64,000 nucleotides of DNA from Microbacterium sp. Root180. GTDB taxonomy: Bacteria > Actinomycetota > Actinomycetes > Actinomycetales > Microbacteriaceae. The notes beneath the pieces were generated by a model. The model saw only the letters and a list, made by a program, of their open reading frames with translations, did no database searches and was not told where the DNA came from. The translations under genes were made by a program, and so were the position numbers. The stretch covers positions 789,626 to 853,625 of the forward strand of contig NZ_LMHS01000003.1 of NCBI RefSeq assembly GCF_001428485.1. The letters run 5' to 3'. Positions 14,390 to 34,104 of this stretch are shown here, in pieces; position 1 is the first letter of the stretch; each line of letters opens with the position of its first letter.

Positions 14390-14430
14390 ATGTACTGCCT
14401 TTGTCTAGTGATTGTCATAGATATGTGTGC
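14390..14430 (+). promoter_or_regulatory. Direct-repeat operator, site 1
   Basis: Four repeats at exact 11-base steps are seen on the plus strand: ATGT (14390), TTGT (14401), TTGT (14412) and ATGTGTGC (14423). The site lies 43-83 bases upstream of the binding-protein GTG. The same pattern recurs at five other points of the cluster. An 11-base period places repeats on one DNA face, as for MocR-type regulators, which bind direct repeats. Confidence 0.65.
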
Positions 14431-14540
14431 CAAACAATGTGCGGTAGATTGTGCAGTGAGTGGCCCGCACCCGTGTGTCGTAGCGGACAGTGGCAACGGC
14501 TGTCCAGGGGGTGCGCGAGCGCGTCGCGCACACGCCTCAT

Positions 14541-14570
14541 GCCTCGATCGACCAGCTGATCGATCGAGGC
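14541..14570. terminator. Terminator-like hairpin downstream of the CapA gene
   Basis: GCCTCGATCGA and TCGATCGAGGC form a perfect 11-bp stem with an 8-base loop. It stands 18 bases past the stop of the CapA-like gene, where the BMP operon should end. No T-run follows on the minus strand. Confidence 0.6.
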
Positions 14571-14587
14571 GTGGGTGGGTCGGCGCT

Positions 14588-15664
14588 TCAGGCTCCCCGT
14601 GGAACAGCCCGGAAACCGCCGTTATCCGGGAGGAGGTCAGTGCTGAAGCGCCGCCGGGACTCCGAGCGCACATGGCGTGCGACTGCCGCAGCATCCTCGT
14701 CACCGAGAAGCGCCGGTCGGCCGTCGGGCTCCGTCTCGATCGGGACGATCCGCAGCGCGACTTCCCCGGCTTCATCGATGTCGATGACAGATACGTACGC
14801 GTCGGGCGAGAATGCCTCGTAGATGGCGATGACCTCGGGCGTCGCATGCTCCGGATCCCGGGGCTGCTGGGCGATGAAGTTGCCTGGGCTGTAGACGATC
14901 GGCGCCCCGCGATAGAGCTCGACTCCCTGCGGTGCGTGCGCGTGATGTCCCAGCACCGCTCCGGCGCCTGCTTCGATCAGCTCGTGCGCCAGTGGACGCT
15001 GATACTCGGCCATGTCGGTTCCGAAGCCCCAACCCCAATGGATCGACACGATGACGACGTCGACGTCCCTCGCTAGTGCGCGCACGTCCTCGAGCAGACG
15101 CGATCTGTCCTCGGCGCGAGGCGTCGTCCGGATCCGCGGCGGCACACCGGGTTCTTCGAGCTGATACTCGCCATTTACCTCCCACGCGGTCTCGATGTGA
15201 ACCGCGGCGACCCCTGGCCGCTCCGGACCGGCCGCCGCGCCCAGCGGGATCAGGCACGTGCGAGGCACGAATCCGATCCGCTTGCCGTTGACTTCGAGCA
15301 CGAGCGGACGCTCGGCGGCATCCCGATCCGCGCCGGCGCCGATCGCACGGATGCCCGCACCCTCGAGTCTTCGTCGGGTGTCGTCGAGCGCCACCCATCC
15401 GTAATCAGAGGAGTGGTTGTTGGCGAGGGTGGCCACGGTCAGCCCGTATGGCACGAGTTCGCGGACGAGCTCCGGCCGCGCCCGGAAGTTCAGCACGCGA
15501 TCGGATGGGTGACCGAGATCACTGAAAGGGAGCTCGACGCTCGAGAGCACGACATCTGCGCTCTGCAGCATCCGTTGCAGGGCACCCACACGCGGGTCGT
15601 CGCGGCAATCCTCGGACGACTTGGTCAGGACGATATCGCCGGTCGCGACGATGCGAACGCTCAT
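14588..15664 (-). CDS. CapA family (PGA_cap) metallophosphatase-like protein
   Basis: This 358-residue protein of the CapA/PgsA family has a calcineurin-like fold named after poly-gamma-glutamate capsule synthesis. Typical motifs are 'IVATGDIVLT', 'DVVLSSVELPFSDLGHP', 'LANNHSSDYGWVALDDT', 'VIVSIHWGWGF' and 'GAVLGHHAHAPQGVELYRGAPIVYSPGNFI'. There is no signal peptide, so it is probably cytoplasmic, unlike the capsule proteins. Its ATG overlaps the stop of the upstream deaminase by four bases. The context (importer, oxidoreductases, deaminase) suggests a catabolic hydrolase rather than a capsule enzyme, but that is inference. Confidence 0.85.
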   Translation of the reverse strand: MSVRIVATGDIVLTKSSEDCRDDPRVGALQRMLQSADVVLSSVELPFSDLGHPSDRVLNFRARPELVRELVPYGLTVATLANNHSSDYGWVALDDTRRRLEGAGIRAIGAGADRDAAERPLVLEVNGKRIGFVPRTCLIPLGAAAGPERPGVAAVHIETAWEVNGEYQLEEPGVPPRIRTTPRAEDRSRLLEDVRALARDVDVVIVSIHWGWGFGTDMAEYQRPLAHELIEAGAGAVLGHHAHAPQGVELYRGAPIVYSPGNFIAQQPRDPEHATPEVIAIYEAFSPDAYVSVIDIDEAGEVALRIVPIETEPDGRPALLGDEDAAAVARHVRSESRRRFSTDLLPDNGGFRAVPRGA

Positions 15665-16140
15665 GCGCGCCTGTCCTCGTCGTGGCGCTCGATCCACACG
15701 GCGAAGGGAACCCGCGACACCGCCGGAGGGATGTCGCCGGCGACGACGTATCCCGGGAGCTCGCTCCTCAGTCGCTCTTGCACGCGGGCGGCGCGAGAGG
15801 GTGCCGGGAACCCCATGTCGGCGGCAAGCGCGCTGGATGCCGCGAAGACCATGCGCTCCACTCCGCTGAAGAGGCCCGTCGCCTGGCACATGATGCAGGG
15901 CTCGCAGCTCGTGTAGACGATCGCCCCCGACAGATCCTCGCCGCCGACCGCCTGGCTCGCGGCGCGGATGGCCCGAACCTCGGCGTGGTCGGTCGGATCC
16001 CCCGAGCTGGTCACGGTGTTGACCCCCTCTGCGACAACGCGCCCGCCGGCCACGACGATCGCACCGAACGGACGCTGCCCGTCGCGCACGTTCGCGGCGG
16101 CCAGATCCAACACGCGCTGCAGAATACCTCGCTCATCCAT
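15661..16140 (-). CDS. Nucleoside/guanine deaminase-like zinc enzyme
   Basis: This 159-residue zinc deaminase has 'DHAEVRAIRAA' with the catalytic Glu and 'TSCEPCIMCQAT' with the two Cys ligands. The N-terminal 'ANVRDGQRPFGAIVV' closely parallels the paralogue at 10785-11234 ('ANVNQGQRPYGALVV'). The C-terminal 'PAPSRAARVQERLRSELPGYVV' resembles guanine deaminase-type enzymes. The ATG at 16140 is preferred; a GTG twelve bases upstream is too close to the AAGGGG. It lies 23 bases after the aldehyde dehydrogenase and overlaps CapA by four bases. Confidence 0.83.
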   Translation of the reverse strand: MDERGILQRVLDLAAANVRDGQRPFGAIVVAGGRVVAEGVNTVTSSGDPTDHAEVRAIRAASQAVGGEDLSGAIVYTSCEPCIMCQATGLFSGVERMVFAASSALAADMGFPAPSRAARVQERLRSELPGYVVAGDIPPAVSRVPFAVWIERHDEDRRA

Positions 16141-16163
16141 GTCGGTCGGCACCCCTTCGTTCC

Positions 16164-17660
16164 TCACCGGCCGGCGAACGGACTCGTGCGTTCCGCCGTG
16201 CGAATCTGCAACGTGCGGTACTCGGTGAACTCGCGGTAGCCCTCGAAGCCGGCGTCGCGCCCGTATCCGGATGCCTTCACTCCGCCGAACGCCAGCTGCG
16301 GCGAGCCGTCGGTGCACGTGTTCACCCAGATCGTTCCGGCCTCCAGCCGCCGGCCGAGGTTCACGCCGCGATCCAGATCGGTCGTCCACAGCGAATGCGC
16401 GAGGCCGTACGAAGTGGCGTTCACCAGAGCAACGGCGTCGTCGTCGTCATCGAAGACGCTGACCGCGAGCACGGGACCGAAGACCTCCTCGGAGAACAGG
16501 GCGGACGTGGGGTCGACGCCCGAGACGATCGTCGGCGGATAGAAGGCTCCGTCCGACAGTTCGCCCCCCGGGATCTCGCCACCCAGCTCGAGGACGCCGC
16601 CCGCGGCGACGGCCGCATCGACGGCGGCCGCGACAGCGTCGCGGTGCGGCGGATGGATGAGCGCGCCGAGGTCCGCCTCCGGGTCCTCCGGCCGTCCCAG
16701 TCGCAGCTTCGCAGCACGCGAGACGACCATCGCGGTGAATCGCTCGGCGATCGATCGCTGCACGATGAGCCGCGTCGTCGCAACGCACGACTCCCCCTGG
16801 TTGATGAAGGCGCCGAAGACCGCGCCGTCGGCGGCCTTCTCGAGGTCGGCGTCAGCGAACACGACGTTCGCCGCCTTGCCTCCGAGCTCCAGTCCGACCC
16901 GCTTGAGCTGACGGGCAGCGGTCTCGGCCACCACGCGCCCAGTGCGAGTAGACCCGGTGAACGACACGTACGCGACGTCGGCGTGCTCGAGGATCCCCTG
17001 ACCCGCGGTGCGGCCATACCCTGTGACCACGTTGACTGCCCCCGCGGGGATGGCCGCCGCCTCGGCGAGCTGCGCGATGACGACCGCCGAACTGGACGTG
17101 AACTCGGATGGCTTCACCACGGTCGTGCAACCGGCGGCGAGCGCGTACGGCAGCTTCTGCAGCATGATCTGCGCCGGGAAGTTCCAGGGGATCACGAGCC
17201 CCACGACACCGAGCGCGCGTCTCTCTCCCACGGCGAGGTAGCCGTGGGAGACGCCGGGAAACGCCTCCCCGGTCTCGGTTCGTGCGATCGCGGCTGCTTG
17301 ACGTACGTGAGCGATCCCGAGGTCGATGTCACCGAGTGCGAACGCGAGCGGCTTGCCGACCTCCTGCGCGTCGATCTCGGCGAGGCGCTGGCGATTCTCC
17401 GTCAGGATCTCGGCGAACCGCTCGAGCCAGGAGGCGCGCTGACCGTGAACGGTGCTCTGCCACGTCTCTGACTCGAAGGTCGTCCGGGCTGCTGCCACGG
17501 CAGCGTCCACTTCCTCTGCCGTCGCGTCGGCGTACAGGGCGACGAGTTCGCCGGTCGCCGGTGCGTGTCTCTCGATAGTCGGCTCACCGACCTCCCTCCC
17601 GCCGATCCAGTGACGGACGAGACGGACGTCGGTGAGTGTCTGAGGGTCTGCGATGGTCAT
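16164..17660 (-). CDS. Aldehyde dehydrogenase family protein
   Basis: This 498-residue NAD(P)-dependent aldehyde dehydrogenase is of full length. Landmarks are 'VIPWNFPAQIMLQKLPYALAAGCTTVVKPSEFT', the glycine motif 'FTGSTRTGRVV', the general-base Glu in 'LELGGKAANVVF' and the catalytic Cys in 'NQGESCVATTR'. The 'EEVFGPVLAV' and 'PQLAFGGVKASGYGRDAG' ends are standard. It oxidises an aldehyde to the acid in the cytoplasm. Placed after the GMC oxidoreductase, it probably takes the aldehyde made by that enzyme. It is separated by 48 bases from the upstream subunit gene. Confidence 0.92.
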   Translation of the reverse strand: MTIADPQTLTDVRLVRHWIGGREVGEPTIERHAPATGELVALYADATAEEVDAAVAAARTTFESETWQSTVHGQRASWLERFAEILTENRQRLAEIDAQEVGKPLAFALGDIDLGIAHVRQAAAIARTETGEAFPGVSHGYLAVGERRALGVVGLVIPWNFPAQIMLQKLPYALAAGCTTVVKPSEFTSSSAVVIAQLAEAAAIPAGAVNVVTGYGRTAGQGILEHADVAYVSFTGSTRTGRVVAETAARQLKRVGLELGGKAANVVFADADLEKAADGAVFGAFINQGESCVATTRLIVQRSIAERFTAMVVSRAAKLRLGRPEDPEADLGALIHPPHRDAVAAAVDAAVAAGGVLELGGEIPGGELSDGAFYPPTIVSGVDPTSALFSEEVFGPVLAVSVFDDDDDAVALVNATSYGLAHSLWTTDLDRGVNLGRRLEAGTIWVNTCTDGSPQLAFGGVKASGYGRDAGFEGYREFTEYRTLQIRTAERTSPFAGR

Positions 17661-17708
17661 CGGTCCTGCTTCTCCTTGCGGTCGAGTCTTGACGGCCTGT
17701 TCCGAGCG

Positions 17709-18209
17709 CTATCCACGCTTCGAGGCCTCTACGGCGTCCACGGCCTCCTGGGGCGCGTCGGGCGGGAGACGGTAAATCGGGCCGCGCTCCATGACGGCGT
17801 CGAGGAGTCCGTCCTCGATCGCTTGGAACACGTCGTCCGGACGGACGATCTTCGCCTCCTGCCAGGGGTAGCGGAGAGCATCGGCGACGGTCTGCGACAT
17901 CAGGTAGCCGCCGGCGACGACGAGTCCGACGACCGCGAGGCCCGGCTCGGCATCCACGCGCGCCGCAATCCTGTGAGCCGCCTCGCCGGCGAGGATGTCC
18001 AACCCCACGAGAAGCGGCTCGGCGAGGTCGGGTCGCACCGTCAGCACCTGGTCGAGAAGACCCGCGTCGATCCCGACGTCGACGGCCGACGGGAGCCCGG
18101 CCCCGGCCGGAATGAGCGCCTCGGCGACGGTGCGGAGTACCGCGCGGTGCTCCGCACCGATCCGGGGCGAGACTTCGCCGGCGGGAAGACCGATGTTCAG
18201 CGCGCTCAT
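17709..18209 (-). CDS. Gluconate 2-dehydrogenase subunit 3-like protein
   Basis: This 166-residue helical protein starts its domain with 'HRAVLRTVAEALIPAGAGLPSAVDVGIDAGL' and continues with 'PWQEAKIVRPDDVFQAIEDGLLD'. This resembles the small (gamma) subunit of gluconate 2-dehydrogenase-type membrane oxidases, though no Tat signal is present. Its ATG has GGAGG at five bases and overlaps the GMC gene stop end by four bases, the usual pairing of catalytic and small subunits. No cytochrome c subunit is found nearby. The family call is moderate. Confidence 0.6.
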   Translation of the reverse strand: MSALNIGLPAGEVSPRIGAEHRAVLRTVAEALIPAGAGLPSAVDVGIDAGLLDQVLTVRPDLAEPLLVGLDILAGEAAHRIAARVDAEPGLAVVGLVVAGGYLMSQTVADALRYPWQEAKIVRPDDVFQAIEDGLLDAVMERGPIYRLPPDAPQEAVDAVEASKRG

Positions 18210-19813
18210 GCCGACCTCCGGACCGCTGCCCGCCGTTCGACGAGGTGACGCGCGTTGCGAAGAGCGACCGCGGCGATCGTGGCAGTGGGGTTCACTCCCG
18301 AGGAGGTGGGGAAGGTGCTTCCGTCGAAGACGAACAGGTTCTCGACATCGTGGGCCTCCCCCCAGCGATCAACGACCGACGACTCGGGATCGTCACCCAT
18401 GACTGCGGTCCCCATGAGGTGCCATCCCGTACCGCGCAGATGGGGATTCTTGATCACCTTCGTGGCGCCCATCTCCTGGAGGAGTTCCTCGATTCGCGCG
18501 AGGTGCCAGTCCATCATGGCGAGCGTGTTGGGCGAGGTCCGATAGTGGACGCGCACTCCCGGGATGCCGCCCTCCGCGGCGGACCCGGATCGGTCGTCGA
18601 GCGTGACCCGGTTCTCGGCATCGGGCAGGTCTTCGCAGATGACCCCCCAGATCATCGAGTGGCCGAACCGCTCCCGCAGGAGGCGGGTGAATCCCTCGCC
18701 CCAGACCGGTTCGTCGCCCCAGGTGCCCGGAAGCATCATCGAGAGCGGCGCACCCGAGGGCAGGAGGTTCCACTTCGCCCCCCGGACGAATCCTCGGGAG
18801 AGATCCGTCTCGTAGAACTCCAGCGAGTGGAGGTACTGCCCCAGTGGTCCGCGCCACGACTCGAGGTCCTCGTCGAAGATCCCGATCGCGTTGCCGAACG
18901 GATGCATCATGAGCCGACGGCCAACGAGGTCGGTGGAGTTCGCGATCCCCGCGCCGTCGGCGGAGTTGAGAAGTATCCGCGGCGTGCCGAGCGCGTTCGC
19001 TGCGAGGATCACGACGTCTGAGGTGAGAACACGTCGCGCGCCGTCGGCGTCGACGTAGACAACGCCGGATGCCCGGCCCCGCGCATCCACGAGCACCTGC
19101 TCGACGGTGCTTTTCGTGCGCAGATCCACACCATCGCGAACGAGTGAGCGCCAGTGCGTGCGGTCGGCCGAGCCCTTCGCTCCCGTCGGACAGCCGAAGG
19201 GACATGCGGTTCGCTGACCGCACGCGTGCATGTCGCGGACGTTCCGCGTCGCGATCGCGTTCATTCCGGGCCACCAGTGCCAGCCTTTCGCCGCGAGGCC
19301 CTCCGCGCCCCGACGGCCGACCGCGTTGAGCGGCACCGGGGGGAGCTCGAGTGGCGCGGCCTCGGGGAACGCAGTGTCACCGTCGAGACCGCTCACCACG
19401 AAGGCCGGCTCGACCTCGTCGTAGAAGGGTGCGAGGTCCCAGTACGACATCGGCCAGTCGTCCCCGACGTCATCGAGCATGCGCGTGCGGAAATCGCTCG
19501 GCAGGAAGCGCTCCCAATGTCCTGCGTAGAGCACGGTGCTGCCGCCGACCCCCGCGTACATCAACGCGGTCACGTCGGAGTCCCGGTCGTCGATCGCGTA
19601 GTCGCCGACACCTCGACGCTGATTCGGATCCCAGTTCCAGTGCTTGCGCGCACCGAGCTCGAAGTCGGGATGTCCCGATCGAGCCAGCGCGTAGTCCGGC
19701 CACGCGCCCTGCTCCAGGCAGACCACCGTCATCCCCGCGTCGTGCAGCTCCCGTGCGGCCACCGCGCCCGAAGGGCCGGCACCGACGATCACCGCATCCA
19801 CCTGATCCGTCAT
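18206..19813 (-). CDS. GMC family FAD-dependent oxidoreductase
   Basis: This 535-residue flavoprotein of the glucose-methanol-choline family has an N-terminal FAD motif 'AVIVGAGPSGAVAARELHDAG'. The stretch 'YAGVGGSTVLYAGHW' is the usual GG-S/T-x2-N/Y region. A Cys-rich insert 'DMHACGQRTACPFGCPTGAKGS' is as in gluconate 2-dehydrogenase flavoproteins. The C-terminus holds the active-site His in 'GTGWHLMGTAVMG' and 'GVNPTATIAAVALRNA'. It oxidises an alcohol or polyol to an aldehyde or ketone; electrons probably pass to the small-subunit partner. It follows the two BMP-type permeases by 45 bases and feeds the aldehyde dehydrogenase. Confidence 0.9.
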   Translation of the reverse strand: MTDQVDAVIVGAGPSGAVAARELHDAGMTVVCLEQGAWPDYALARSGHPDFELGARKHWNWDPNQRRGVGDYAIDDRDSDVTALMYAGVGGSTVLYAGHWERFLPSDFRTRMLDDVGDDWPMSYWDLAPFYDEVEPAFVVSGLDGDTAFPEAAPLELPPVPLNAVGRRGAEGLAAKGWHWWPGMNAIATRNVRDMHACGQRTACPFGCPTGAKGSADRTHWRSLVRDGVDLRTKSTVEQVLVDARGRASGVVYVDADGARRVLTSDVVILAANALGTPRILLNSADGAGIANSTDLVGRRLMMHPFGNAIGIFDEDLESWRGPLGQYLHSLEFYETDLSRGFVRGAKWNLLPSGAPLSMMLPGTWGDEPVWGEGFTRLLRERFGHSMIWGVICEDLPDAENRVTLDDRSGSAAEGGIPGVRVHYRTSPNTLAMMDWHLARIEELLQEMGATKVIKNPHLRGTGWHLMGTAVMGDDPESSVVDRWGEAHDVENLFVFDGSTFPTSSGVNPTATIAAVALRNARHLVERRAAVRRSA

Positions 19814-19858
19814 GTCTTCTCGTTCCGTCTCCTTGGATCCTGTGCCCTCATCGCACGC

Positions 19859-20734
19859 CTACTCAAGCGCCTCGGGCGAAGCCGCGATCGTCATTCCGCG
19901 GCGCCGGTAGCCGATGCCGGCGACGACCATCGCTACGATCGTGGCGACGTACGGCGCCATCTGGATGAACTGCGAAGGCACCTGGCCGCCCCACGTGAGT
20001 TGCGCCTCGATCCCGATCCCCTCGGCGAAGCCGAAGAAGATCGCAGCGGCGGCGGTCCCGATCGGCGTGACACCCCCGAGCAGCACCGCGATGAACGCGA
20101 CGTAACCCCGTCCCGCCGCCATGTTTTGGCTGAAGCTCTGCACGTTCGAGAGGGCCAGCTCCGTCCCGGCGAGCGCACAGCACGCGCCGGCGATCAGGAG
20201 GGCGACCAGTCTCGTGCGGTCGACGTGAACTCCCGCGCTGCGTGCGGCGAAGACATCCCTCCCACTGACGGAGATTCTGAGGCCCCACCGCGTCCGCGCG
20301 AAGACGAACCACGCGACGGCCGTGAGCCCGACCGCGGCGTAGGTCAGGATCGACAGCTCGCCCCCGAATGGTTTCGGCAGTTCCACCGTGGTCTGAATCG
20401 CGGCCTGCGAGCCGAAGATGCGCACCAGGGCATATGTCGTCGCCGATGCGGCCGTCAGTGAGATCGCGAGGCCCACGATCACGACGTTCGCTCTCAGTTT
20501 CGTGATGAGCAGCCAGAACAGGACGGAGACGACGAGCGACGCCGCGATCGCCACGGTCATGGACATGACCAGGGAGCCGGTCGCGATGGCGATGGTGACG
20601 CTGACGAACGCGCCGATCAGCATGAGTCCCTCGAGGCCCATGTGGAGCACTCCCGCACGCTGGGCGAAGAGTCCACCCAGTGCGGCGAGCCAGATCGGCG
20701 TGGCCGCTTGCAGGCACGTGATGAGGAAATCCAT
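19859..20734 (-). CDS. ABC transporter permease, nucleoside (BMP) type, second subunit
   Basis: This 291-residue membrane protein has about eight to nine helices of the BPD_transp_2 family. 'AALGGLFAQRAGVLHMGLEGLMLIGAF' near the N-terminus is the YufQ-like signature of nucleoside importers. 'FAARSAGVHVDRTRLVALLIAGACCALAGTELAL' is the ATPase-contact region. The ATG at 20734 follows AGGAGG; only two bases separate it from the stop of the companion permease. It forms the heterodimeric channel with that protein. Confidence 0.9.
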   Translation of the reverse strand: MDFLITCLQAATPIWLAALGGLFAQRAGVLHMGLEGLMLIGAFVSVTIAIATGSLVMSMTVAIAASLVVSVLFWLLITKLRANVVIVGLAISLTAASATTYALVRIFGSQAAIQTTVELPKPFGGELSILTYAAVGLTAVAWFVFARTRWGLRISVSGRDVFAARSAGVHVDRTRLVALLIAGACCALAGTELALSNVQSFSQNMAAGRGYVAFIAVLLGGVTPIGTAAAAIFFGFAEGIGIEAQLTWGGQVPSQFIQMAPYVATIVAMVVAGIGYRRRGMTIAASPEALE

Positions 20735-20736
20735 GG

Positions 20737-21894
20737 TCACTTGCCTCCTGTCTTCGCGAGCATGGGACCGGTGTCCTGGGCATTCCGCGGCGGATCGCCG
20801 TCCGATCTCGGCACGGGTGCGATCAGGGCCGACTCCTGCATCCGTCTCCGCCGCCGCGCCAACCACGCCGGGATCGCCGCGATCGAGAGGGGAACCGCCG
20901 AGATGGTGATGAGGAGCGCGACGAGTCCGCTGATGAGTTCGACCCCGCTCTGAGGTACGTCGCTCACCACGGGGAGGAAGAGCGTTGCGGCGCGGAGGGC
21001 ACCGAAGAACGCTGCGGCGGCGAGGACGCCGAAGACCCCCAGCCCGCCGACCAGGGCGACGATGATCCCCATGAATCCGACCTGCGGAGAGTACGCGGCC
21101 CGGATCATGCCGGCCGGCCCGAGCACTTCGACGGCACCCGCGAGCCCGGCCGTTGCGCCCGAGAGCGCGAAGACGAGCGATCCCAGCTTCTTGTCGTCGA
21201 CGCCCTGCCATTTCGCCATGACGGGATTGCGACCCGCGATCCGGATCTCCAGCCCCGTCCGCGTGAACCGGCCGAAAACGAAGGCGGACGCCGTGACGAC
21301 CGCGCAGATGACGAGGATCGTCGGTGATACGCCCGAGATCCCGCTGATCCGCAAGTCCGTCGGAACCGGCACCGAGACGGCGGCCTGCCCGCTGCCGGCG
21401 CCGCTCTTGAGCGGTCCCGCGGCGACCCACTGGAGCAGCAGGATCGCGATGAAGTTCAGCATGAGGCTGGTGACAACTTCGTCGGCGGCGAACACGAACC
21501 GCAGCACTCCGGAGATGAGCGACCAGATCGCGCCGCAGACAATACCGGCCAGCAGCACGATCGGGACCGCGAGCCACGCGGGCATGCCTTCGAGGCTCAC
21601 CGCTGCCCAGAGGGCGCCGATCGATCCGAGGTACATCTGACCTTGCGCGCCGACGTTGAAGTAACCGGCGCGGAACGACACGGAGACGCCGAGCGCGATG
21701 AGCAGGAGCGGCACAGCCCAGCGGACCGACTGCGTGAGCGCTTCGGGTGTCGCGACAGATCCCTGCAGGATCCCCGATACGACCTCACCGACGTCGTATC
21801 CGGTCAAGGCGTACACGGCGAGCGCAACGCCGATCCCGGCGACCACGACGCCGACGGTCCTGGCAACCCGCGCCAGCCCGGTGGTACGGCTCAT
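20737..21894 (-). CDS. ABC transporter permease, nucleoside (BMP) type, first subunit
   Basis: This 385-residue permease resembles YufP. After a first helix (residues 15-35) it shows 'LGVSVSFRAGYFNVGAQGQMYLGSIGALWA', the hallmark of the larger nucleoside-importer permease. 'GRNPVMAKWQGVDDKKLGSLVFALSGATAGLAGAVEVLGPAG' is the coupling segment. The C-terminus is a 40-residue cytoplasmic tail. Its ATG overlaps the ATPase gene stop by four bases. With the neighbours it makes a complete importer. Confidence 0.92.
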   Translation of the reverse strand: MSRTTGLARVARTVGVVVAGIGVALAVYALTGYDVGEVVSGILQGSVATPEALTQSVRWAVPLLLIALGVSVSFRAGYFNVGAQGQMYLGSIGALWAAVSLEGMPAWLAVPIVLLAGIVCGAIWSLISGVLRFVFAADEVVTSLMLNFIAILLLQWVAAGPLKSGAGSGQAAVSVPVPTDLRISGISGVSPTILVICAVVTASAFVFGRFTRTGLEIRIAGRNPVMAKWQGVDDKKLGSLVFALSGATAGLAGAVEVLGPAGMIRAAYSPQVGFMGIIVALVGGLGVFGVLAAAAFFGALRAATLFLPVVSDVPQSGVELISGLVALLITISAVPLSIAAIPAWLARRRRRMQESALIAPVPRSDGDPPRNAQDTGPMLAKTGGK

Positions 21895-26567: not shown

Positions 26568-27464
26568 CTACGACATTCCGACGAGGCCTCGTCCGGTCGT
26601 GTCGGCCGCGCGAGACCGCCACCGGCCCGCTTCCACGTCGTCGACGAACTCCGCCACGAGCGCGGTGAACCTCGCCGGATCCTCGAGATTGGGCGTATGC
26701 CCCGTCCGGGGGAGCACGACGAGCGCGCTCGAGGGCATCGCCCGCTTGAGCGCGAGGTTAGTCTCGAGACATCCGTCGTCCTCGTCGCCCACAACGAAGA
26801 GGACCGGCGCACGCACCTCACCGAGCGGCTCGGTAAGGCTCAGCAGCGACGGGCGGCGTCCCTGGACCTGCGCGAAGGTGAGGGACATTCCCGTGGGGTC
26901 GTGACCCTCGAGTGACTCTCGGAAGGCCTGCCACCGCTGAGGCGCCTTCGACTTCAATTGCATCCGAGTCGGACCGTCCGCATAGGCGCGGGCGGCAGCG
27001 ACGCGGTCCGACCGAAAGGCCTCCGCGGCCGCGCGAGCCTCTGCCTGAAAGCGTGGCCTCTCATCTGGGTTGGAGCCATACCCTGCGCCAACGATCACCG
27101 CGGAGCGTGCGCGCTCTGGTGCGGTCAAGAGGAGGTGAGCGGCCGCGAAGCCACCCATGGAGAAGCCGACGACGTGTGCCGAGTCCACGCCGACCGCATC
27201 GAGCACCGCCGACGCGTCCTCAACCGCAATACTTTGCGAGTACATCTCGGGATCCGTCGGCACATCCGAGGGCGGATAGCCCCGGGCGTTGTATCGGATG
27301 CAGCGGTAGGTTCCGGCGAGTTCGCTCACCTGAGCGTCCCAGCTCCTGACGGTTCCTGCGACTTCATGGAGGAACAGGATGGGCGGGGCATCCGGCGGTC
27401 CGTCAACCTCGACATGCAGCGACGTGCCACCGGTCGACCATGCCCGGAGCAACACGTGGCTCAC
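26568..27464 (-). CDS. Alpha/beta hydrolase, enol-lactonase/esterase type
   Basis: This 298-residue alpha/beta hydrolase resembles 3-oxoadipate enol-lactonases and related carbon-carbon or ester hydrolases. The oxyanion segment is 'PPILFLHEVAGTVRSWDAQ'; the nucleophile elbow is 'VVGFSMGGFAA'. The acid lies in 'VVGDEDD' and the His in 'RTGHTPNLEDP'. It is cytoplasmic. The GTG at 27464 overlaps the dehydrogenase stop by four bases (GTGA), so it is coupled to the long operon. It ends 24 bases before the MocR start. Confidence 0.88.
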   Translation of the reverse strand: MSHVLLRAWSTGGTSLHVEVDGPPDAPPILFLHEVAGTVRSWDAQVSELAGTYRCIRYNARGYPPSDVPTDPEMYSQSIAVEDASAVLDAVGVDSAHVVGFSMGGFAAAHLLLTAPERARSAVIVGAGYGSNPDERPRFQAEARAAAEAFRSDRVAAARAYADGPTRMQLKSKAPQRWQAFRESLEGHDPTGMSLTFAQVQGRRPSLLSLTEPLGEVRAPVLFVVGDEDDGCLETNLALKRAMPSSALVVLPRTGHTPNLEDPARFTALVAEFVDDVEAGRWRSRAADTTGRGLVGMS

Positions 27465-28288
27465 GATCGCTGCCAGACGTCACGAAGCAACTGGAACGTG
27501 AGGGCGGAGACCGGGACCGGCACGACGTCCTGATCGGCTTCGGTCATGGTGGAGCGCAGATCCTTGAGGAGGATGTCGAGATCCTCGCCGGGCACGTAGG
27601 TCTCCCACCACGGCTTCACGCGAGACCAGTTCTTTGTCGTCCAGCTCCCGCCGACGCTGTGCGACAGGATCTCCATCAGCTGCCCCTCGTCCACGCCGTG
27701 CGACTTGACGACCTGCAGCGCCTCGAAGACCGCCATCATGTGAATGCCGAAGGACAGCTGCACCGCGAGCTTCGTCGCCTGGCCGGTTCCCGGAGTGTCC
27801 CCGACGACATACCGATTGCCGCTCACGGACTCGGCGAGCGGCGCGATGCGCTCGACCGCGGCCGGCGCTCCCGAGATCATGAGCGTCAGTGTGCCGGCCT
27901 CCGCGCCCCACGGTCCACCGGACATGGTCGCGTCGACCGCCGAACCGCCGGTGGACGCGACGCGCTCGGCGATGGAACGCATCGTCGTGGGATCGAGCGT
28001 GCTCGAGATCACGACGGTCCGCGGTTCGCCGATCGACGTCACACCCCCGGGGCCGAACAACACGGCCTCGGTCTGAGCCTTCGTCCGGACGACGGACCAG
28101 ACCACCTCGTCGGCGGCGAGCGCTGCAGCGCGCGGGGAGTCGACGGTGACGATGCCTTTGTCGCGCGCTTTGGCCTGCTGTTCCGGCGAGGGGTCGAAGC
28201 CGTGCACGCTGTGGCCGGCTGCCACGAGGTTCGCGGCGATGCCGAGTCCCATCGCACCCAGCCCGATGAATCCGATCTGCTCGCTCAT
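27461..28288 (-). CDS. NAD(P)-dependent beta-hydroxyacid dehydrogenase-like protein
   Basis: This 275-residue 3-hydroxyisobutyrate dehydrogenase-type protein has the N-terminal 'IGFIGLGAMGLGIAANLVAAGH'. The substrate motif is 'MSGGPWGAEAGTLT', and the catalytic Lys is in 'QATKLAVQLSFG', with Gln in place of the usual Asn four residues on. 'SHSVGGSWTTKNWSRVKPWW' matches 'THSVADSWVARNWPHVEEYW' of the paralogue at 9847-10755. AGGAA precedes the ATG. The shared deviations suggest that both act on related, non-standard hydroxyacids. Confidence 0.87.
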   Translation of the reverse strand: MSEQIGFIGLGAMGLGIAANLVAAGHSVHGFDPSPEQQAKARDKGIVTVDSPRAAALAADEVVWSVVRTKAQTEAVLFGPGGVTSIGEPRTVVISSTLDPTTMRSIAERVASTGGSAVDATMSGGPWGAEAGTLTLMISGAPAAVERIAPLAESVSGNRYVVGDTPGTGQATKLAVQLSFGIHMMAVFEALQVVKSHGVDEGQLMEILSHSVGGSWTTKNWSRVKPWWETYVPGEDLDILLKDLRSTMTEADQDVVPVPVSALTFQLLRDVWQRS

Positions 28289-28578
28289 GCGGGCGTTCCT
28301 TTCAGGTCGATGACAGTGACCGCGGCGCCGTCCAGTCGCTGCGCCGCGGCGATATGTGCGGGGTCGTCCAGGTAGGCGTCCAGCGCAGCCTCGTCGGCGA
28401 ACACCGCGGCCAGGGCGAGGGCGGCGCCGCCGGAGAACTCGCTGGGTGCTGCATTCGCCCCGTGATGCACGTGGGCGGCGCCGGCAGATCGCGCGAGGCG
28501 CGCGAGCTCCTCCACCACGGGGGCCAGCGCCTCCGGGTCCGTCTCGGACCCGATCGCCACGACGTGCGCGACGGTCAT
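28285..28578 (-). CDS. Dabb (stress-responsive A/B barrel) domain protein
   Basis: This 97-residue protein looks like a dimeric ferredoxin-like barrel: 'LARLARSAGAAHVHHGANAAPSEFSGGAALALAAVFADEAALDAYLDDPAHIAAAQRLD' has the Dabb pattern, where the 'Y-x2-P-H' near the C-terminus is the best mark. Such proteins serve as small cyclases, decarboxylases or isomerases in polyketide and aromatic pathways, or have unknown roles. ATGA overlaps link it to both neighbours. The function here is not assignable. Confidence 0.65.
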   Translation of the reverse strand: MTVAHVVAIGSETDPEALAPVVEELARLARSAGAAHVHHGANAAPSEFSGGAALALAAVFADEAALDAYLDDPAHIAAAQRLDGAAVTVIDLKGTPA

Positions 28579-28883
28579 CTCGACAGCTCCACGGTCTCCA
28601 TCGCGGCGATCGGACCCGGCGAGCCGGATGCCGCCTCTCGCGCCTGCGCCTGGACCCAGTCCGGATGCTCGCGGAACGCGGCCCACTTGGCGTCGCGGTC
28701 ATCGGGCGAGTCGAACTCCGCGACGTAGACGAACACCTCGCCCTTCTTGAGAGATCGCAGCCACGGACCATGGACGACGATGCCGATGTCAGCGAAGATC
28801 GGACGGCTCACCTCCTCGAACTGACGGAGCATCGGCTCTCGGCCATCGGCGGTGAGCGTGTAGGTGCGCAGTTCAGCCAACAT
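28575..28883 (-). CDS. NIPSNAP family protein
   Basis: This 102-residue protein starts 'MLAELRTYTLTADGREPMLRQFEEVSRPIFADIGI', the standard NIPSNAP opening with R-x-Y-T-L. It continues 'VHGPWLRSLKKGEVFVYVAEFDSPDDRDAKWAAFREHPDWV', with the family's W-x2-F-x2-H-P-x-W. The fold is a ferredoxin-like dimer. It is embedded in the catabolic operon, overlapping the genes on each side, so a pathway role is likely although none is proven for the family. Confidence 0.85.
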   Translation of the reverse strand: MLAELRTYTLTADGREPMLRQFEEVSRPIFADIGIVVHGPWLRSLKKGEVFVYVAEFDSPDDRDAKWAAFREHPDWVQAQAREAASGSPGPIAAMETVELSR

Positions 28884-29551
28884 CAGCGGATCCCTTCGGA
28901 CGTCGGTGCAGACCAGGCGGTCTCGAAAGCGGAGGTGTCGGCGACGACCGCGAAGCGCTGCGCCGCCGTGAGGAGCGAGGCCTCATGGAGGGCCATGTCC
29001 CAGGATGCGCACGCGTCGTGGGCGATATGGACCGAGATCTCGCGTGCGAACGCCTCGCGCGCGGTGGTGTCCACGCACACGTTCGTCGACACGCCCGCGC
29101 AGACGACCGACCCGATGCCCACGCTCCGCATCACCAGCTCGAGCTCGGTGCCGGTGAACGCGCCGTACCGGTACTTCTTGACGATCAGGTCGCCGCCTTC
29201 GGGAGCCAGCGCGGTCACGGGCTGCTGTCCCCAGGTGCCGTCTTCGCAGATGTCGGTCGCGGAGTATGTGGCGCGGGACCGCGCATCGCGCCAAACCGGC
29301 GAGTCCGACCTGCCGTCCGGCAGCGTCGTGTGCAGACAGTGGATCACGGTGACTCCTGACGCGCGAGCTGCCTGGAGAAGTCGCCGCGCGTTGGCGATCG
29401 CGGACACCGCGTGCGAGACATCCCGCTTGCCGACCGTCGCGGCCTTGCCAGCAGGGTCCACGAAGTCGTTGGAGAAGTCGATCAGGAGGAGCGCCGTTCG
29501 CCCGGGAGCGACGCGTGCCGGTTCCACGGCATCGGCGAATGGATGGGTCAT
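28883..29551 (-). CDS. Cysteine hydrolase of the isochorismatase superfamily
   Basis: This 222-residue protein has the catalytic triad of the isochorismatase-like hydrolases: Asp in 'ALLLIDFSNDFVDP', Lys in 'LIVKKYRYGAFTGTEL' and Cys in 'VCAGVSTNVCVDTTAREAF'. A 'G-V-x-T-N-V-C' signature with a following Thr/Ala is frequent in N-carbamoyl and ureido-type amidohydrolases (RutB, N-carbamoylsarcosine hydrolase). It would cleave an amide or ureido C-N bond. The ATG at 29551 overlaps the upstream stop by four bases; a longer frame would overlap more. It supports the idea of a nitrogenous substrate. Confidence 0.88.
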   Translation of the reverse strand: MTHPFADAVEPARVAPGRTALLLIDFSNDFVDPAGKAATVGKRDVSHAVSAIANARRLLQAARASGVTVIHCLHTTLPDGRSDSPVWRDARSRATYSATDICEDGTWGQQPVTALAPEGGDLIVKKYRYGAFTGTELELVMRSVGIGSVVCAGVSTNVCVDTTAREAFAREISVHIAHDACASWDMALHEASLLTAAQRFAVVADTSAFETAWSAPTSEGIR

Positions 29552-30105
29552 GCAAGTGTCCGTTCTGACGTTCGAGGTCGAATGAGCCACCGGTCGCCGA
29601 GGCCGTCTGCGATTGCCGACGGGTCAGCGCCGGGGGCGACCAGCGCAAAGAGCCCGCGGCGCCCCGCGAGCGCGTCACGGTGTCCTTCGACGCCGGTGGC
29701 CGCGAGCTCCGCGGCCTCCGCGCCGGCGCGGACGGCATGCGCACGCTGGAGCGCACCGAGTGGTCCCGCCTCGAGCTCCTCGAGTCCACCGGCCTGAGTC
29801 GCCGCGAGGCCGATCGCTCGCTCAGCCGTGCGGGAGTCGAGCTTGCGCCATCTGCTCCCGGCGACCGCGGACCCGACGACGAGCGCCGCGCTCGTGCGGC
29901 TCCAGCCGCCTTCGACGTGACCGTCCAGCGCGGCGATGATGCGGAGCGCGACCTCCGCGCCTGCCGCGAGGTCGGGTTCGGCGGCTTGCGGATGCGCCTC
30001 TCTGAGCGCGTCGATGAGCGCCAGCGCGTCGGCGGAGACCGGCACGGGTTCCCCGTCCGCCGCCGCGAATGCGGCCACCGCTGCCGTGATGCCCGCGTCG
30101 ATCAT
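29548..30105 (-). CDS. Short stand-alone MmgE/PrpD-like protein
   Basis: This 185-residue protein aligns by eye with the middle helical part of MmgE/PrpD proteins: 'GAEVALRIIAALDGHVEGGWSRTSAALVVGSAVAGSRWRKLDSRTAERAIGLAATQAGG' then 'GALQRAHAVRAGAEAAELAATGVEGHRDALAGRRGLF'. The N- and C-terminal domains of the family are missing. It overlaps the full-length paralogue upstream and the hydrolase downstream by four bases, so it is kept in the operon as a gene, not as debris. It may be a partner subunit of the full-length protein. Confidence 0.65.
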   Translation of the reverse strand: MIDAGITAAVAAFAAADGEPVPVSADALALIDALREAHPQAAEPDLAAGAEVALRIIAALDGHVEGGWSRTSAALVVGSAVAGSRWRKLDSRTAERAIGLAATQAGGLEELEAGPLGALQRAHAVRAGAEAAELAATGVEGHRDALAGRRGLFALVAPGADPSAIADGLGDRWLIRPRTSERTLA

Positions 30106-31493
30106 CGGGCCACCTCCTCGGCATCGAGGCCCAGCGACCGCCAAGGATGGTTGTCGGACCCGTGCAACGCTGTGACCGTCGACTCGACGGCACGGATGCC
30201 GGGAGTGCGCGCGAACCCGAGGAGCACCGCGGCCTTGGCTCGCACCTCGTCGTCCGTGAGTGGACGGGCGGCGCTCCCCCGGGCGTGCGCGATGTGATGC
30301 CGGAGCACCGTGCCGTCCTCCAGTTCGACGGATACCTCGGCTTCGTCGCGTCGCAGTGAGGCATCGGTGATGACCTCCGTCGCGAAGCGGATCCGGCGGA
30401 TCTCGTCGTCGACAGCGACGGTCTCCTCGAACTCGGCGATACCGGCGGCGCGATGCCGCAGTCCTACGGCGACACCGTGGCGGGCCGAGAATCGCGCCTC
30501 GAGAGAGGTCTCCGGATCCACCCGGCCCATGAGCTCCTCGACGAGCGGATGTGCGCGATAGCGGACGACGCGGATGCTCTTGGTCGAGACTCCCGCCCCG
30601 ACGAGTTGCTCACCTACCGCCACCCCGGCATCGATCCCCGGATGCGCCACGATGCCGCACGGATACGGCTTGAACGCGTTGTACTCCAGCTCCCACGGGG
30701 TGTCCACGCCCCACTCCCGCGCGAGCAGCCCGTGGTCGGCGGCGCCGGGAGCGAATGCCTCGAGCAGGAGTGCCAGGGGATCCGCGCCCATGCGCCAGTC
30801 GGCGTGCCTCTCAGCGAAGCCCGGTGCTTCGTCGGTGATCTCGACGCCCGCGGCGGCGGCGAGGCCGGCGTGCAGCGGCTTGGTCTCGCTGCCGAAACCC
30901 TCACGGTGCCCGAGCGTGCGAACACATGCGATGGCGATGCTCGCGGCGAGGGTCTGTCCCCTGAGCCCGCGCAGGAGCGCGGCTGTGACGGTCGCGCCGA
31001 CGACGCCGCACGTGCCGGTGATGTGCCAACCGCGATCGTAGTGCTCGGGGCACACGGCCTCTCCCAGCCGCAGCTGCGCTTCGCAGCCGATCGCGAAGGC
31101 CCGCAGCAGGTCGTCGCCCGTCACCTCACCGCTCCAGCCGATCGCCCACGCGGCGCCGAAGCACGCGGCCGACGGATGGATCACGGTGCCGAGATGCGTG
31201 TCGTCGAAATCGTCGTAGTGCCCCGCGAATCCGGAGACGAGCGCGGCATCGCGGACACTGGCGCGCCCGGGCACGAGATCCGTGATCCCGAGCGGGGCGG
31301 TTGCCGCGCCGGCTTCCCCATCTGCGACTCGTACGTATGACGCCAAACGCTGTACGCCGGGTGTCCGCTCGGCTCCTGCAATCACGCCCACGATGTTAAG
31401 CAGGGACCGCTCAGCCGCGCGCCGGACGCGCTCCGGCAGCGGTCTCTCCCACTCCCGGGCGATGACAGCCACGAACGCGTCCAGCTCGCCCAT
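30102..31493 (-). CDS. MmgE/PrpD family protein (2-methylcitrate dehydratase-like)
   Basis: This 463-residue protein has a complete MmgE/PrpD fold. Marks are 'RRAAERSLLNIVGVIAGA', 'DAALVSGFAGHYDDFDDTHLGTVIHPSAACFGAAWAIG', 'GWHITGTCGVVGATVTAALLRG' and 'AFKPYPCGIVAHPGIDAG'. The H-x-D-D/F-D-D-T-H segment is the active-site region of the family, which includes 2-methylcitrate dehydratase and itaconate decarboxylase. The start may be ATG 31493 or GTG 31499; the latter has GGAG at five bases. Substrate is unknown; a dehydratase or isomerase on a polycarboxylate-like acid is plausible. Confidence 0.88.
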   Translation of the reverse strand: MGELDAFVAVIAREWERPLPERVRRAAERSLLNIVGVIAGAERTPGVQRLASYVRVADGEAGAATAPLGITDLVPGRASVRDAALVSGFAGHYDDFDDTHLGTVIHPSAACFGAAWAIGWSGEVTGDDLLRAFAIGCEAQLRLGEAVCPEHYDRGWHITGTCGVVGATVTAALLRGLRGQTLAASIAIACVRTLGHREGFGSETKPLHAGLAAAAGVEITDEAPGFAERHADWRMGADPLALLLEAFAPGAADHGLLAREWGVDTPWELEYNAFKPYPCGIVAHPGIDAGVAVGEQLVGAGVSTKSIRVVRYRAHPLVEELMGRVDPETSLEARFSARHGVAVGLRHRAAGIAEFEETVAVDDEIRRIRFATEVITDASLRRDEAEVSVELEDGTVLRHHIAHARGSAARPLTDDEVRAKAAVLLGFARTPGIRAVESTVTALHGSDNHPWRSLGLDAEEVAR

Positions 31494-31495
31494 GG

Positions 31496-31903
31496 TCACG
31501 CGGACTCCGGCGTGAAGGGTGCACCGGCCGCGTCGGCGTCCGGGCCGAGCCACGTGATGGGGCCGAACGACAGCGCCAGCTGCGCCAGCGCAGAGTCCTC
31601 GGCGGCGCCGTGATAGTGCTCTTCCCCGGGCTCGATCCACACCACGTCCCCGGCTTCGAGGCGGAGGGGATCTTGACCGCGCCGACCGACGACACCGGAG
31701 CCGTGGACCACGTGGATGAGCTGCCCGTCGGTGTGGCTGTGCCAATTTCCGCGGACCGCGGGCGCCAGCCGGATGAGGGCGGCGGTGGCCTTGCTGGTCT
31801 GCGTCTGACCGATGGACGACTGGAACGCATCACCGCTGAACTGCGCCGGCTCCGGGACCGGAGTGGGGTCGGCCAGGAGTTCGCTGATGGAGACGCGCTT
31901 CAC
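31496..31903 (-). CDS. Cupin domain protein
   Basis: This 135-residue single-domain cupin has the metal motif 'GNWHSHTDGQLIHVVHGSG' (motif 1, with two His and a Gln in place of the Glu) and 'LEAGDVVWIEPGEEHYHG' (motif 2). The C-terminus 'PITWLGPDADAAGAPF' is typical of small cupins of the AraC-sensor or dehydratase type. GGAGG stands seven bases before the GTG at 31903, which overlaps the upstream gene by four bases. It could be a small metalloenzyme in the pathway; no substrate is evident. Confidence 0.85.
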   Translation of the reverse strand: MKRVSISELLADPTPVPEPAQFSGDAFQSSIGQTQTSKATAALIRLAPAVRGNWHSHTDGQLIHVVHGSGVVGRRGQDPLRLEAGDVVWIEPGEEHYHGAAEDSALAQLALSFGPITWLGPDADAAGAPFTPESA

Positions 31904-32760
31904 GCCGAAGCCTCCGCCGCCGCGGGAACCTCGGCGCCAGGCAGGGCGATCGAGGTGAAGGCCCGGATGGTCTCGGTCATCGCGATCTCGACGGGAATGC
32001 GCTCCATGCTCGAGGCGCCGAGGAATCCGACCACTCCGTGGCACTGGCCAATCACGTACGCGGCGTCCTCCGGAGTTGCGATGGGCCCGCCGTGGCACAC
32101 CACGTGGGAACGGTCGTTGACCTCGCGGACCACGTCGTGAACGCGCTGGGTGAGCTCGACCGCGCGATCGAGGTCGACGGCGTGCTGTCCGCCGATGAAT
32201 CCCTGCGCGGTCAGTCCCACGTGCGCGACGATGATGTCCGCGCCGACGGCGGCCATGGCGCGGGCCTCCTCGTCGGTGCGGACGTACGCAGCAGTGACCA
32301 GGTCCAGCTCTATGGCGCGACGGACCATTTCGACCTCTTGCGCGAAGGTGTACCCCGTCGACTCGAGGTCAGCCCGCGCGGCACCGTCCAGCAGACTTAC
32401 GCTCGGGAAGTTCTGCACTCCCTTGAAGCCCTGCTCCTTCAGCTGAACGAGGAATCGAGGGATGTCGCGCATCGGGTCGGTCGCGCACACGCCGGCGAAG
32501 ACGGGAGTGTTCGGCGCGACCGGGAGCACTTCCGCGCCCATCTCCACGACGATGTCATTGGCGTTCCCATACGGCATCATGCCTGCCATGGACCCGCGGC
32601 CCGCCATCCGAAAACGACCCGCGTTGTAGACGACGATGAAGTCCGCTCCCGCTGTGTCGGCGCACTTCGCCGACAGGCCTGTTCCGGCGCCCGCTCCGAT
32701 GAGTGCGACTCCGCGGCGCACCTTGTCGTCGTAGCCGCTGAGGATGTGTTCCCGGCTCAT
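31900..32760 (-). CDS. PEP hydrolase-like TIM-barrel protein (PF09370 type)
   Basis: This 286-residue TIM barrel is of the phosphoenolpyruvate hydrolase-like family. Segments seen: 'VRRGVALIGAGAGTGLSAKCADTAGADFIVVYNAGRFRMAGRGSMAGMMPYGNAN', 'FAGVCATDPMRD', 'GFKGVQNFPSVSLLDG' and 'AHVGLTAQGFIGG'. Proteins of this type are commonly adjacent or fused to Tm-1-like (UPF0261) proteins, and the Tm-1-like gene lies immediately upstream here. The enzymatic role is unproven. The start has operator site 4 about 65-100 bases upstream, suggesting an extra promoter inside the operon. Confidence 0.87.
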   Translation of the reverse strand: MSREHILSGYDDKVRRGVALIGAGAGTGLSAKCADTAGADFIVVYNAGRFRMAGRGSMAGMMPYGNANDIVVEMGAEVLPVAPNTPVFAGVCATDPMRDIPRFLVQLKEQGFKGVQNFPSVSLLDGAARADLESTGYTFAQEVEMVRRAIELDLVTAAYVRTDEEARAMAAVGADIIVAHVGLTAQGFIGGQHAVDLDRAVELTQRVHDVVREVNDRSHVVCHGGPIATPEDAAYVIGQCHGVVGFLGASSMERIPVEIAMTETIRAFTSIALPGAEVPAAAEASA

Positions 32761-32822
32761 GGTCGTAGGTTCTCCAAATCTCGCTCGTGATTCGAGTCAG
32801 TGCGACGAGGCACGATCGAACA

Positions 32823-32860
32823 TTGTCAGCATATTGTGTGTTCCTTGTTTATGCAATGTG
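32823..32860 (+). promoter_or_regulatory. Direct-repeat operator, site 4
   Basis: Four repeats at exact 11-base steps: TTGT at 32823, 32834 and 32845, then ATGTG at 32856. The site overlaps the stop codon of the Tm-1-like gene and precedes the PEP hydrolase-like gene. It shares spacer bases TGTTC with site 2. Confidence 0.65.
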
Positions 32861-34069
32861 CGGGTGTCGATGACGATCCATCTCGGACGGAGGCAGGAGC
32901 GCAAGAAGCTCCTGCGCGGCGATCCGCCCGAAGTCGGCAGTGTCCAGGGGCACTCCGGCGTGCACTACGCGGATGTTCTCGGAAAGCCTGGTCACCAGGG
33001 ACTGTACGAGAGCGGCGTCCGCATCGGCATCCGCGAATGCGCCGCCTGCGGCGCCGAGCGATGAGAAGCCCCCCTCCGGCAGGACGACGGTCGTCGGCCC
33101 CGTCGCGGCGGTGAGCTTCTCAGCGAGAATCTCTCCGAGTCTGACGCCGTCCTCGCTGTTGGTCCGGACGAGAGTGTCCAGGGGACCGTGCTGCGACATC
33201 GTGCGCGAACGCAACCGGGCAGGCACCGTATCAGGAGGGCCGAAGTTGGCGATATCGAGCGCACCCACCGACACCACCTGAGGGATGCCGGCGCGTGCGG
33301 CCGCGCCCAGTCGATCCGGCCCGGCGGTGGCCTTGCCTCCGAGGAGCTCATCGGCTAGTTCGGTCGTGGTCAGGTCGAGGACGGCCGCGATACGGCCGTC
33401 CCGGACGAGGCGTTCGACCGTGCGGCCGCCAGCACCGTTCGCATGGAAGGCGACAGGCTCCCATCCAGCGCTCGCCAGAACGCGGGCTGCTTCTGTGGCG
33501 GCCGTCGTGGTGACGCCGAACATCGTGACGGCGACCGTCCGACCGCCCTCGCGAGGCTCGGGCACAGCAGCGGCCGCCGAGACCATCGCCGCGGCCCGGT
33601 CGAGCACCAAGCGGGTCAGTCCATTGAGGCCGGCGAAGTCGACAGGCGAAGGGACGACGATGACGTCACTGCCCGAGGTCGCCTGAGCCGCCACCTCGGC
33701 CATCGTCGTGAGGAGCAGCTTGGGCATCCCGAGCGGCAGAGCGACGAATGCGGGGGCTGCCAGGGCGACGGCACCGGAGCCGCCGACGGCGACGGCCCCC
33801 GTCAGGTCATCCGCCCGCTCGAGAGCCAATCGACGCAGCCCCTCGGCCATCCCTGCCAGCACCGGCGCCCGGTCGGCGCGGTCCCGATCGCCGAGTGTGA
33901 CGTCACCCGCCCGCGCGATCGCCTCTCGCGTCACGTCCGCCACGAGGCCCGGCACTCCCGAAGTGCCCACGTCAACTAGAAGCACCTGCTCGCCACGGGC
34001 AACCAGCACATCGCGGAGATGCGCGAACTCCGCCGCCTTCGTGTCGAAGCTACCTGCCAGCAGAATCAC
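32849..34069 (-). CDS. Tm-1-like ATP-binding (UPF0261) protein
   Basis: This 406-residue protein of the Tm-1-like ATP-binding family is named after a tomato virus-resistance protein. The N-terminus 'VILLAGSFDTKAAEFAHLRDVLVARGEQVLLVDVGTSG' is diagnostic. 'GGSGAVALAAPAFVALPLGMPKLLLTTMAEVA' and 'NGAGGRTVERLVRDGRIAAVLDLTTTELADELLGG' follow in the usual order. AAGGAGG precedes the GTG at 34069. The family's bacterial function is not settled; its constant partner is the PEP hydrolase-like protein, found next in this operon. It is the first gene of the long minus-strand operon, divergent from the VOC gene. Confidence 0.9.
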   Translation of the reverse strand: MILLAGSFDTKAAEFAHLRDVLVARGEQVLLVDVGTSGVPGLVADVTREAIARAGDVTLGDRDRADRAPVLAGMAEGLRRLALERADDLTGAVAVGGSGAVALAAPAFVALPLGMPKLLLTTMAEVAAQATSGSDVIVVPSPVDFAGLNGLTRLVLDRAAAMVSAAAAVPEPREGGRTVAVTMFGVTTTAATEAARVLASAGWEPVAFHANGAGGRTVERLVRDGRIAAVLDLTTTELADELLGGKATAGPDRLGAAARAGIPQVVSVGALDIANFGPPDTVPARLRSRTMSQHGPLDTLVRTNSEDGVRLGEILAEKLTAATGPTTVVLPEGGFSSLGAAGGAFADADADAALVQSLVTRLSENIRVVHAGVPLDTADFGRIAAQELLALLPPSEMDRHRHPHIA

Positions 34070-34078
34070 GTCGCCTCC

Positions 34079-34104
34079 TTGTACGCTTAATGTGTGCAAA
34101 ACAT
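34079..34104 (+). promoter_or_regulatory. Direct-repeat operator, site 6
   Basis: TTGT at 34079 and ATGTGTGC at 34090 have the 11-base step. An inverted ACAT follows at 34101, again one step on. The TTGT overlaps the complement of the Tm-1 ribosome site, so only the second repeat is independent evidence. The site lies between divergent genes and could serve both. Confidence 0.5.

Follow-up and report, generated by a model that had tools for sequence, protein, structure and literature searches.

MocR-type regulators recognise operators that, as compiled by Suvorova and Rodionov (2016, PMC5320631), consist of 2–4 boxes with a conserved TGT or TGG, arranged as direct repeats at distances of one or several helical turns. 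Motifs of three direct boxes were assigned there to 18 regulons and motifs of three direct boxes plus one inverted box to 14 regulons. EnuR (EutR), which controls ectoine catabolism, is a MocR-type repressor whose ATTGT half-sites overlap the -35 and -10 elements (PMC8739950), while GabR of Bacillus subtilis activates gabTD and represses its own gene gabR (PMC6917764). Here we analysed a 64-kb stretch of the genome of Microbacterium sp. Root180 (contig NZ_LMHS01000003.1, positions 789,626 to 853,625), called the window in the following. For this DNA an earlier reading of the sequence, referred to as the original prediction, had proposed that a spaced direct repeat joins the promoters of a catabolic gene cluster into one regulon. 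We find six arrays of TGT boxes in 11-bp steps, which very probably are the operators of the MocR-subfamily regulator encoded in the cluster and would co-regulate the main operons of the cluster together with its own gene. The binding of MocR to the arrays, the sign of the control and the ligand are deduced from the sequence.

The arrays fall within what is described for MocR operators (2–4 TGT/TGG boxes in direct and/or inverted orientation, separated by one or several turns), and their structures match motif types given in the main text of the collection, while the content of the regulon differs from the groups that are named there (PMC5320631). That the regulon is new and of a known kind is well supported, since motifs of three direct boxes and of three direct plus one inverted box have been described and the regulator scores below the curated cut-offs of the named families (see below).

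Six arrays of TGT boxes

The pair pattern WTGT-N7-WTGT was searched on both strands of the window and in the whole genome (3.35 Mb). It occurs 12 times in the window, and all 12 pairs lie inside six promoter sites of the cluster, at 14390, 24561, 24668, 32823 and 34079 on the plus strand and at 26562 on the minus strand. All sites of the original prediction were recovered at their positions and with exact 11-base steps. When one mismatch was allowed, each of the six sites comprised at least three boxes in 11-bp steps:

14390..14438, plus strand: array 1, four boxes, ATGT at 14390, TTGT at 14401, TTGT at 14412 and ATGTGTGC at 14423
24561..24597, plus strand: array 2, boxes at 24561, 24572 and 24583 and a degenerate ACGT at 24594
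24668..24700, plus strand: array 3, boxes at 24668 and 24679 and ATGTGTGC at 24690
32823..32866, plus strand: array 4, four boxes at 32823, 32834, 32845 and 32856
34068..34100, plus strand: array 5, ACGT at 34068, TTGT at 34079 and ATGTGTGC at 34090
26541..26573, minus strand: array 6, TCGT at 26573, TTGT at 26562 and TTGT at 26551

The short two-unit form that had been described for the minus strand is present, but the one-mismatch search extends it by a degenerate third box (TCGT at 26573), as it does for the two-unit Tm-1 site (ACGT at 34068).

Almost all operons of the cluster have such an array at their start. Array 1, whose boxes are followed by an inverted ACAAT (14434-14438), lies upstream of a sugar-type ATP-binding cassette (ABC) operon on the minus strand (start codon 14347). 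Array 2 and, as a second site, array 3 belong to the operon of a BMP-type transporter, a GMC oxidoreductase and an aldehyde dehydrogenase (ALDH; minus strand, start 24481). Array 4 precedes an operon that begins with a phosphoenolpyruvate (PEP)-hydrolase-like gene (minus strand, start 32760) and overlaps the 3' end of the Tm-1 gene. Array 5 occupies the divergent gap between Tm-1 (start 34069, minus strand) and a glyoxalase gene (start 34177, plus strand), where the site at 34079 and the Shine-Dalgarno region of Tm-1 overlap. Array 6 extends over a TATATT -10-like element and the start codon of the MocR gene (ATG at 26543).

Several sites resemble each other beyond the boxes. The sequence ATGTGTGC is found three times in the window, each time within an array, as had been noted for an 8-mer exact in three sites. 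The shared spacer bases reported for the second and fourth site correspond to TTGTxTGTTCxTTGT at 24561 and 32834, and the sites at 14390 and 24668 have ATGTACTGSC in common.

Specificity of the arrays within the genome

Six copies of the three-unit pattern exist in the whole genome, all of them in the cluster, and a reversed control pattern gave no match. With one mismatch 12 matches were obtained, 9 of them in the cluster, and of 41 two-unit matches 12 are located there. Dinucleotide shuffles of the five intergenic segments contained on average 0.17 pairs (maximum 3) compared to 12 observed, and 0.0017 triples compared to 6. When box spacings from 5 to 33 were scanned, only 22, i.e. twice 11, gave more than two pairs besides 11 itself. 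Many equally good matches elsewhere, which the original prediction had named as a refuting outcome, were not seen: within the genome good matches are essentially confined to the cluster.

The arrays, whose AT-richness had been remarked on in the original prediction, lie where the cluster is richest in AT (GC 0.46-0.60), which would suit repeats that arise by chance or composition, e.g. as AT-rich promoter DNA or curved DNA bound by no specific protein. Such an origin is contradicted by the shuffles of the very same DNA with their selective enrichment of spacings 11 and 22, by the genome-wide specificity and by the conservation across families described below. We regard it as refuted by the genome-wide counts, the shuffles and a motif search in eight genomes (see below), its probability being practically nil.

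Orthologous clusters

At E<=1e-60 the MocR protein had no match outside its own genome, neither among the sampled congeners (149 genomes, with its own counted) nor among the sampled genomes of the family (300, with its own counted). The cluster therefore looks like an acquired or accessory island. A query of all species genomes with MocR found no relative, and among plasmid records only distant MocR proteins (~31%) were seen.

Using the PEP-hydrolase-like protein as query, orthologous clusters were located in four Actinomadura, one Nonomuraea and one Sinosporangium genome (loci L033-L038). A search of the same family, Streptosporangiaceae, provided a seventh (genome G721, loci L060/L061). Each of the seven contains 19-20 of 25 query proteins, from the PGA_cap protein and the BMP importer through the glyoxalase, which was not seen in L037, where the locus stops at the contig end. 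Comparing 9847-34641 of the window with L033-L038 and L060, the catabolic cluster is kept almost gene for gene.

The MocR gene is adjacent and divergent in all seven clusters, and its product is 45-47% identical over the full length; in each of six genomes searched it was the single match at E<=1e-40. Cluster, arrays and MocR are inherited together. The proposed regulon of two importers and all enzymes is supported with one restriction: the sugar-type importer and two cytidine-deaminase-like (CDA-like) proteins had no match in the orthologous clusters and were seen in the cluster of this genome only; the importer is therefore classed as accessory. The conserved core regulon would accordingly comprise the BMP importer, the GMC, ALDH, PEP-hydrolase and PrpD enzymes, and MocR.

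Other candidate loci were set aside. The PEP-hydrolase/Tm-1 pairs of L003-L031 (~49-56% identical) lack the rest of the cluster within short flanks and represent different clusters; as a negative control they contained a two-unit match in only one locus. The rest of the cluster is likewise absent from L062-L066, which carry GMC homologues of 50-55% identity.

Conservation of the sites

The repeats are kept in the orthologous clusters, as seen from box spacing, motif search and reciprocal matrices; their lack of conservation was the second outcome by which the original prediction would have been refuted. In orthologous intergenic DNA we counted 17 same-strand TGT pairs at spacing 11, and no other spacing had more than 6. 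Upstream of the BMP operon TGT-N8-TGTCTAGAGGATGTATGCATAACAAT is conserved in 5 of 7 loci. The DNA of L033, L034, L035 and L037 reads (C/T)TGTCATC(C/T)TG-GTGTCTAGAGG-ATGTATGCATA-ACAATC at this position, and L060 has a close variant, such that all five possess three boxes at 11-bp steps followed by an inverted ACAAT. Array 1 of the window is built in the same register (TTGTCTAGTGA-TTGTCATAGAT-ATGTGTGCCAA-ACAATG). Box arrays upstream of the GMC gene are also present in L036 (five boxes including an ACGT), L037, L038 and L060; TGTCTAGTGA of L038 is identical to array 1. In Nonomuraea, boxes in 11-bp steps read GTGT-TTGT-TTGT-ACGT-ATGT.

The motif TGT-N8-TGT-N8-TGT-N-TGC was found six times in eight genomes (~70 Mb), compared to three times for the reversed control. 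Two of the six matches lie in arrays of the window and four at the BMP-upstream positions of the Actinomadura clusters. A matrix of the Streptosporangiaceae sites ranked array 1 first in the window, in the same register, with arrays 5, 2 and 6 within the top nine. Conversely, a matrix of the six window sites had its best match in each of the seven 20-kb orthologous loci within the intergenic DNA of the cluster, which makes up 3-5% of each locus.

Two further observations concern the intergenic DNA between MocR and PGA_cap. In most Streptosporangiaceae clusters it contains a conserved element CAATACGTTA...GTACAATC (L033:338-607 and equivalents), and a word of this element, AACGTATTG, also flanks array 2 of the window.

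The MocR regulator

25011..26543, minus strand: MocR-subfamily regulator with a GntR winged helix-turn-helix and a class I/II aminotransferase domain

The N-terminal winged helix-turn-helix matches PF00392 (E 1.7e-11, residues 24-86) and the C-terminal aminotransferase-like domain PF00155 (E 2.4e-12). A profile search against the PDB returned GabR and fold-type-I aminotransferases. K344 (within SFSKS) does not vary among 8 orthologues and corresponds in the alignment to the FSK lysine of aminotransferases; it is the lysine that would hold pyridoxal phosphate (PLP), and the ligand is therefore probably an amine from the pathway.

In NCBIfam the protein reaches the curated cut-off of none of the models for PdxR, EhuR, PtsJ, YczR, MocR and GabR. 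PdxR-type regulators, which share direct and inverted boxes with TGT/TGG, provide the best model, but an assignment to PdxR was rejected (NF052282, 200.9 versus 320 bits; the cluster genes that were scanned include no pdx gene). GabR shares the domain architecture, direct-repeat operators and autoregulation, but is distant in sequence (profile match E ~1e-25) and controls the use of gamma-aminobutyric acid; its repeats are wider apart than those of the arrays (two or three helical turns; PMC5320631). The likeness to EnuR/EutR extends from the subfamily and the control of an importer plus catabolic genes to the ATTGT half-site and operators over -35 and -10 elements spaced 17 bp (PMC8739950). 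The EnuR consensus, however, is the inverted repeat ATTGT-N6-ACAAT, whereas the arrays repeat the box in direct orientation at least three times, every 11 bp, and occasionally add an inverted ACAAT, and the pathway genes differ. Identity with EnuR was rejected on this operator structure and on the score against the curated ectoine-regulator model (EhuR, NF052286; 187.9 bits versus a cut-off of 480).

Direct repeats of 11 bp are typical of OmpR/PhoB-type and some DeoR-type operators as well, such that the arrays might bind a regulator encoded elsewhere, with the proximity of MocR being coincidental. We consider this improbable because no other regulator was found in the cluster: among the Pfam-scanned genes from 9.8 to 37.8 kb MocR was the only transcription factor. 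Within the genome the sites are confined to the cluster of MocR, which alone among regulators was seen to accompany the arrays in two distant families; moreover, one array covers the mocR start codon, and TGT boxes and ATTGT half-sites suit MocR proteins. The original choice of MocR as regulator is in agreement with its travelling with the cluster, its binding being predicted from these observations.

Promoter architecture and mode of control

Read on the operon strand, the boxes TGTCTA and TGTCCA become TAGACA and TGGACA, which match the -35 consensus in 5 of 6 positions. Of 14 orthologous regions upstream of BMP or GMC, 11 carry TRGACA-N17/18-TA...T at box 2, and array 2 of the window carries it as well. 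The orthologous -10 elements follow 17-18 bp after the -35 element and read TACGTT, TACCTT or TATGTT for BMP and TACGGT for GMC. For the window this yields one predicted promoter:

24550..24578, minus strand: predicted promoter TGGACA-N17-TACAGT, with the -35 element complementary to the array 2 box TGTCCA

With a box forming the -35 hexamer, the boxes therefore run from the -35/-10 spacer to about -60, and bound MocR would span roughly -20 to -60 of the operon promoters. At its own gene MocR would cover the -10 element and the start codon, which would result in autoregulation. Repression that is relieved by a ligand is somewhat favoured over activation. The placement of the arrays over the promoter fits an EnuR-like repressor, because the EnuR half-sites overlap -35 and -10.

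Alternatively, the same operators could serve MocR as an activator, which with PLP and an amine ligand would recruit RNA polymerase to weak promoters and, GabR-like, repress only its own gene. We regard this as a serious though less probable possibility. It would account for -10 elements that are poor (TACGTT, TACGGT) while the -35 element matches in 5 of 6 positions, the site over the -10 element and start codon of mocR would suit it, and GabR sets the precedent (PMC6917764). At several sites, however, a box lies within the -35/-10 spacer, where bound protein would more simply block the polymerase, and the similarly placed EnuR is a repressor (PMC8739950).

A number of observations weigh against the reading of the arrays as MocR operators. 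The top score of the Streptosporangiaceae matrix in the window (15.8) was higher than the average of the shuffle maxima (11.4), but one of the 60 shuffles went up to 21.4. The matrix of the window sites gave chance scores above 20 in 3 of 32 control loci, such that what counts is where the best match lies rather than how high it scores. Since the four Actinomadura clusters are close relatives, independent support comes from about four lineages plus the window. In Streptosporangiaceae the promoter of MocR itself contains only a partial site (ATGTATGC), the GMC promoters of L033-L035 have no array, spacer bases vary among the sites, and no clear -10 element was found for arrays 1, 3, 4 and 5.

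Genes of the cluster

Besides MocR the following genes and groups of genes were distinguished:

11231..14347, minus strand: sugar-type ABC importer (solute-binding protein and two permeases)
14588..24481, minus strand: BMP-type importer (BMP, ATPase, two permeases), GMC oxidoreductase, 166-aa protein, ALDH, CDA-like deaminase and PGA_cap protein
26568..32760, minus strand: PEP-hydrolase-like protein, cupin, two MmgE/PrpD open reading frames, isochorismatase-like hydrolase, NIPSNAP, 3-hydroxyacid-dehydrogenase-type reductase and alpha/beta hydrolase
32849..34069, minus strand: Tm-1/UPF0261 protein
34177..34641, plus strand: glyoxalase-fold protein, divergent from Tm-1 across array 5

The 166-aa protein encoded after the GMC oxidoreductase (17709-18209) matches no Pfam family with confidence (Gluconate_2-dh3 weakly, E 0.17). 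Its gene follows GMC genes in the seven orthologous and five other clusters, and it is a likely partner subunit of GMC. Of the two adjacent MmgE/PrpD reading frames (29548-31490) the first matches the N-terminal domain only in part; the order of the pair is kept in the orthologous clusters. Two CDA-like deaminases are present in the window (15664-16389 and 10788-11978). In L033 an Amidohydro_3 protein stands in their place after the glyoxalase gene (L033:18299-19540) and is a possible functional replacement. A hydroxymethyl-bearing N-heterocycle as substrate of the pathway is a guess; a literature search on a Tm-1/PEP-hydrolase pathway or thiamine-pyrimidine breakdown gave nothing useful for the pathway.

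Discussion

We propose that the operator consists of at least three direct boxes (consensus W-TGT, with ACGT and TCGT as weaker variants), sometimes followed by an inverted ACAAT. The boxes are one helical turn apart and therefore face one side of the DNA. This arrangement would fit a head-to-tail MocR dimer, for which boxes i and i+2 are 22 bp, i.e. two turns, apart. MocR would repress until a primary-amine intermediate of the pathway forms an aldimine with its PLP. More tentatively, and rather unlikely at present, MocR proteins of this group may use extended tandem arrays (3-5 boxes with single-turn spacing) on which head-to-tail dimers interleave at boxes i and i+2. If true, this would mean cooperative control of a catabolic pathway, undescribed so far, that travels with its regulator from one actinobacterial family to another.

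The regulon as defined from sequence places two importers and about 20 genes under one PLP-type regulator, and the inducer of the pathway could therefore be searched for with a single reporter. The arrays allow further members of the pathway to be found by sequence, and they would provide a natural set of multi-box operators for studying how head-to-tail MocR dimers read direct repeats.

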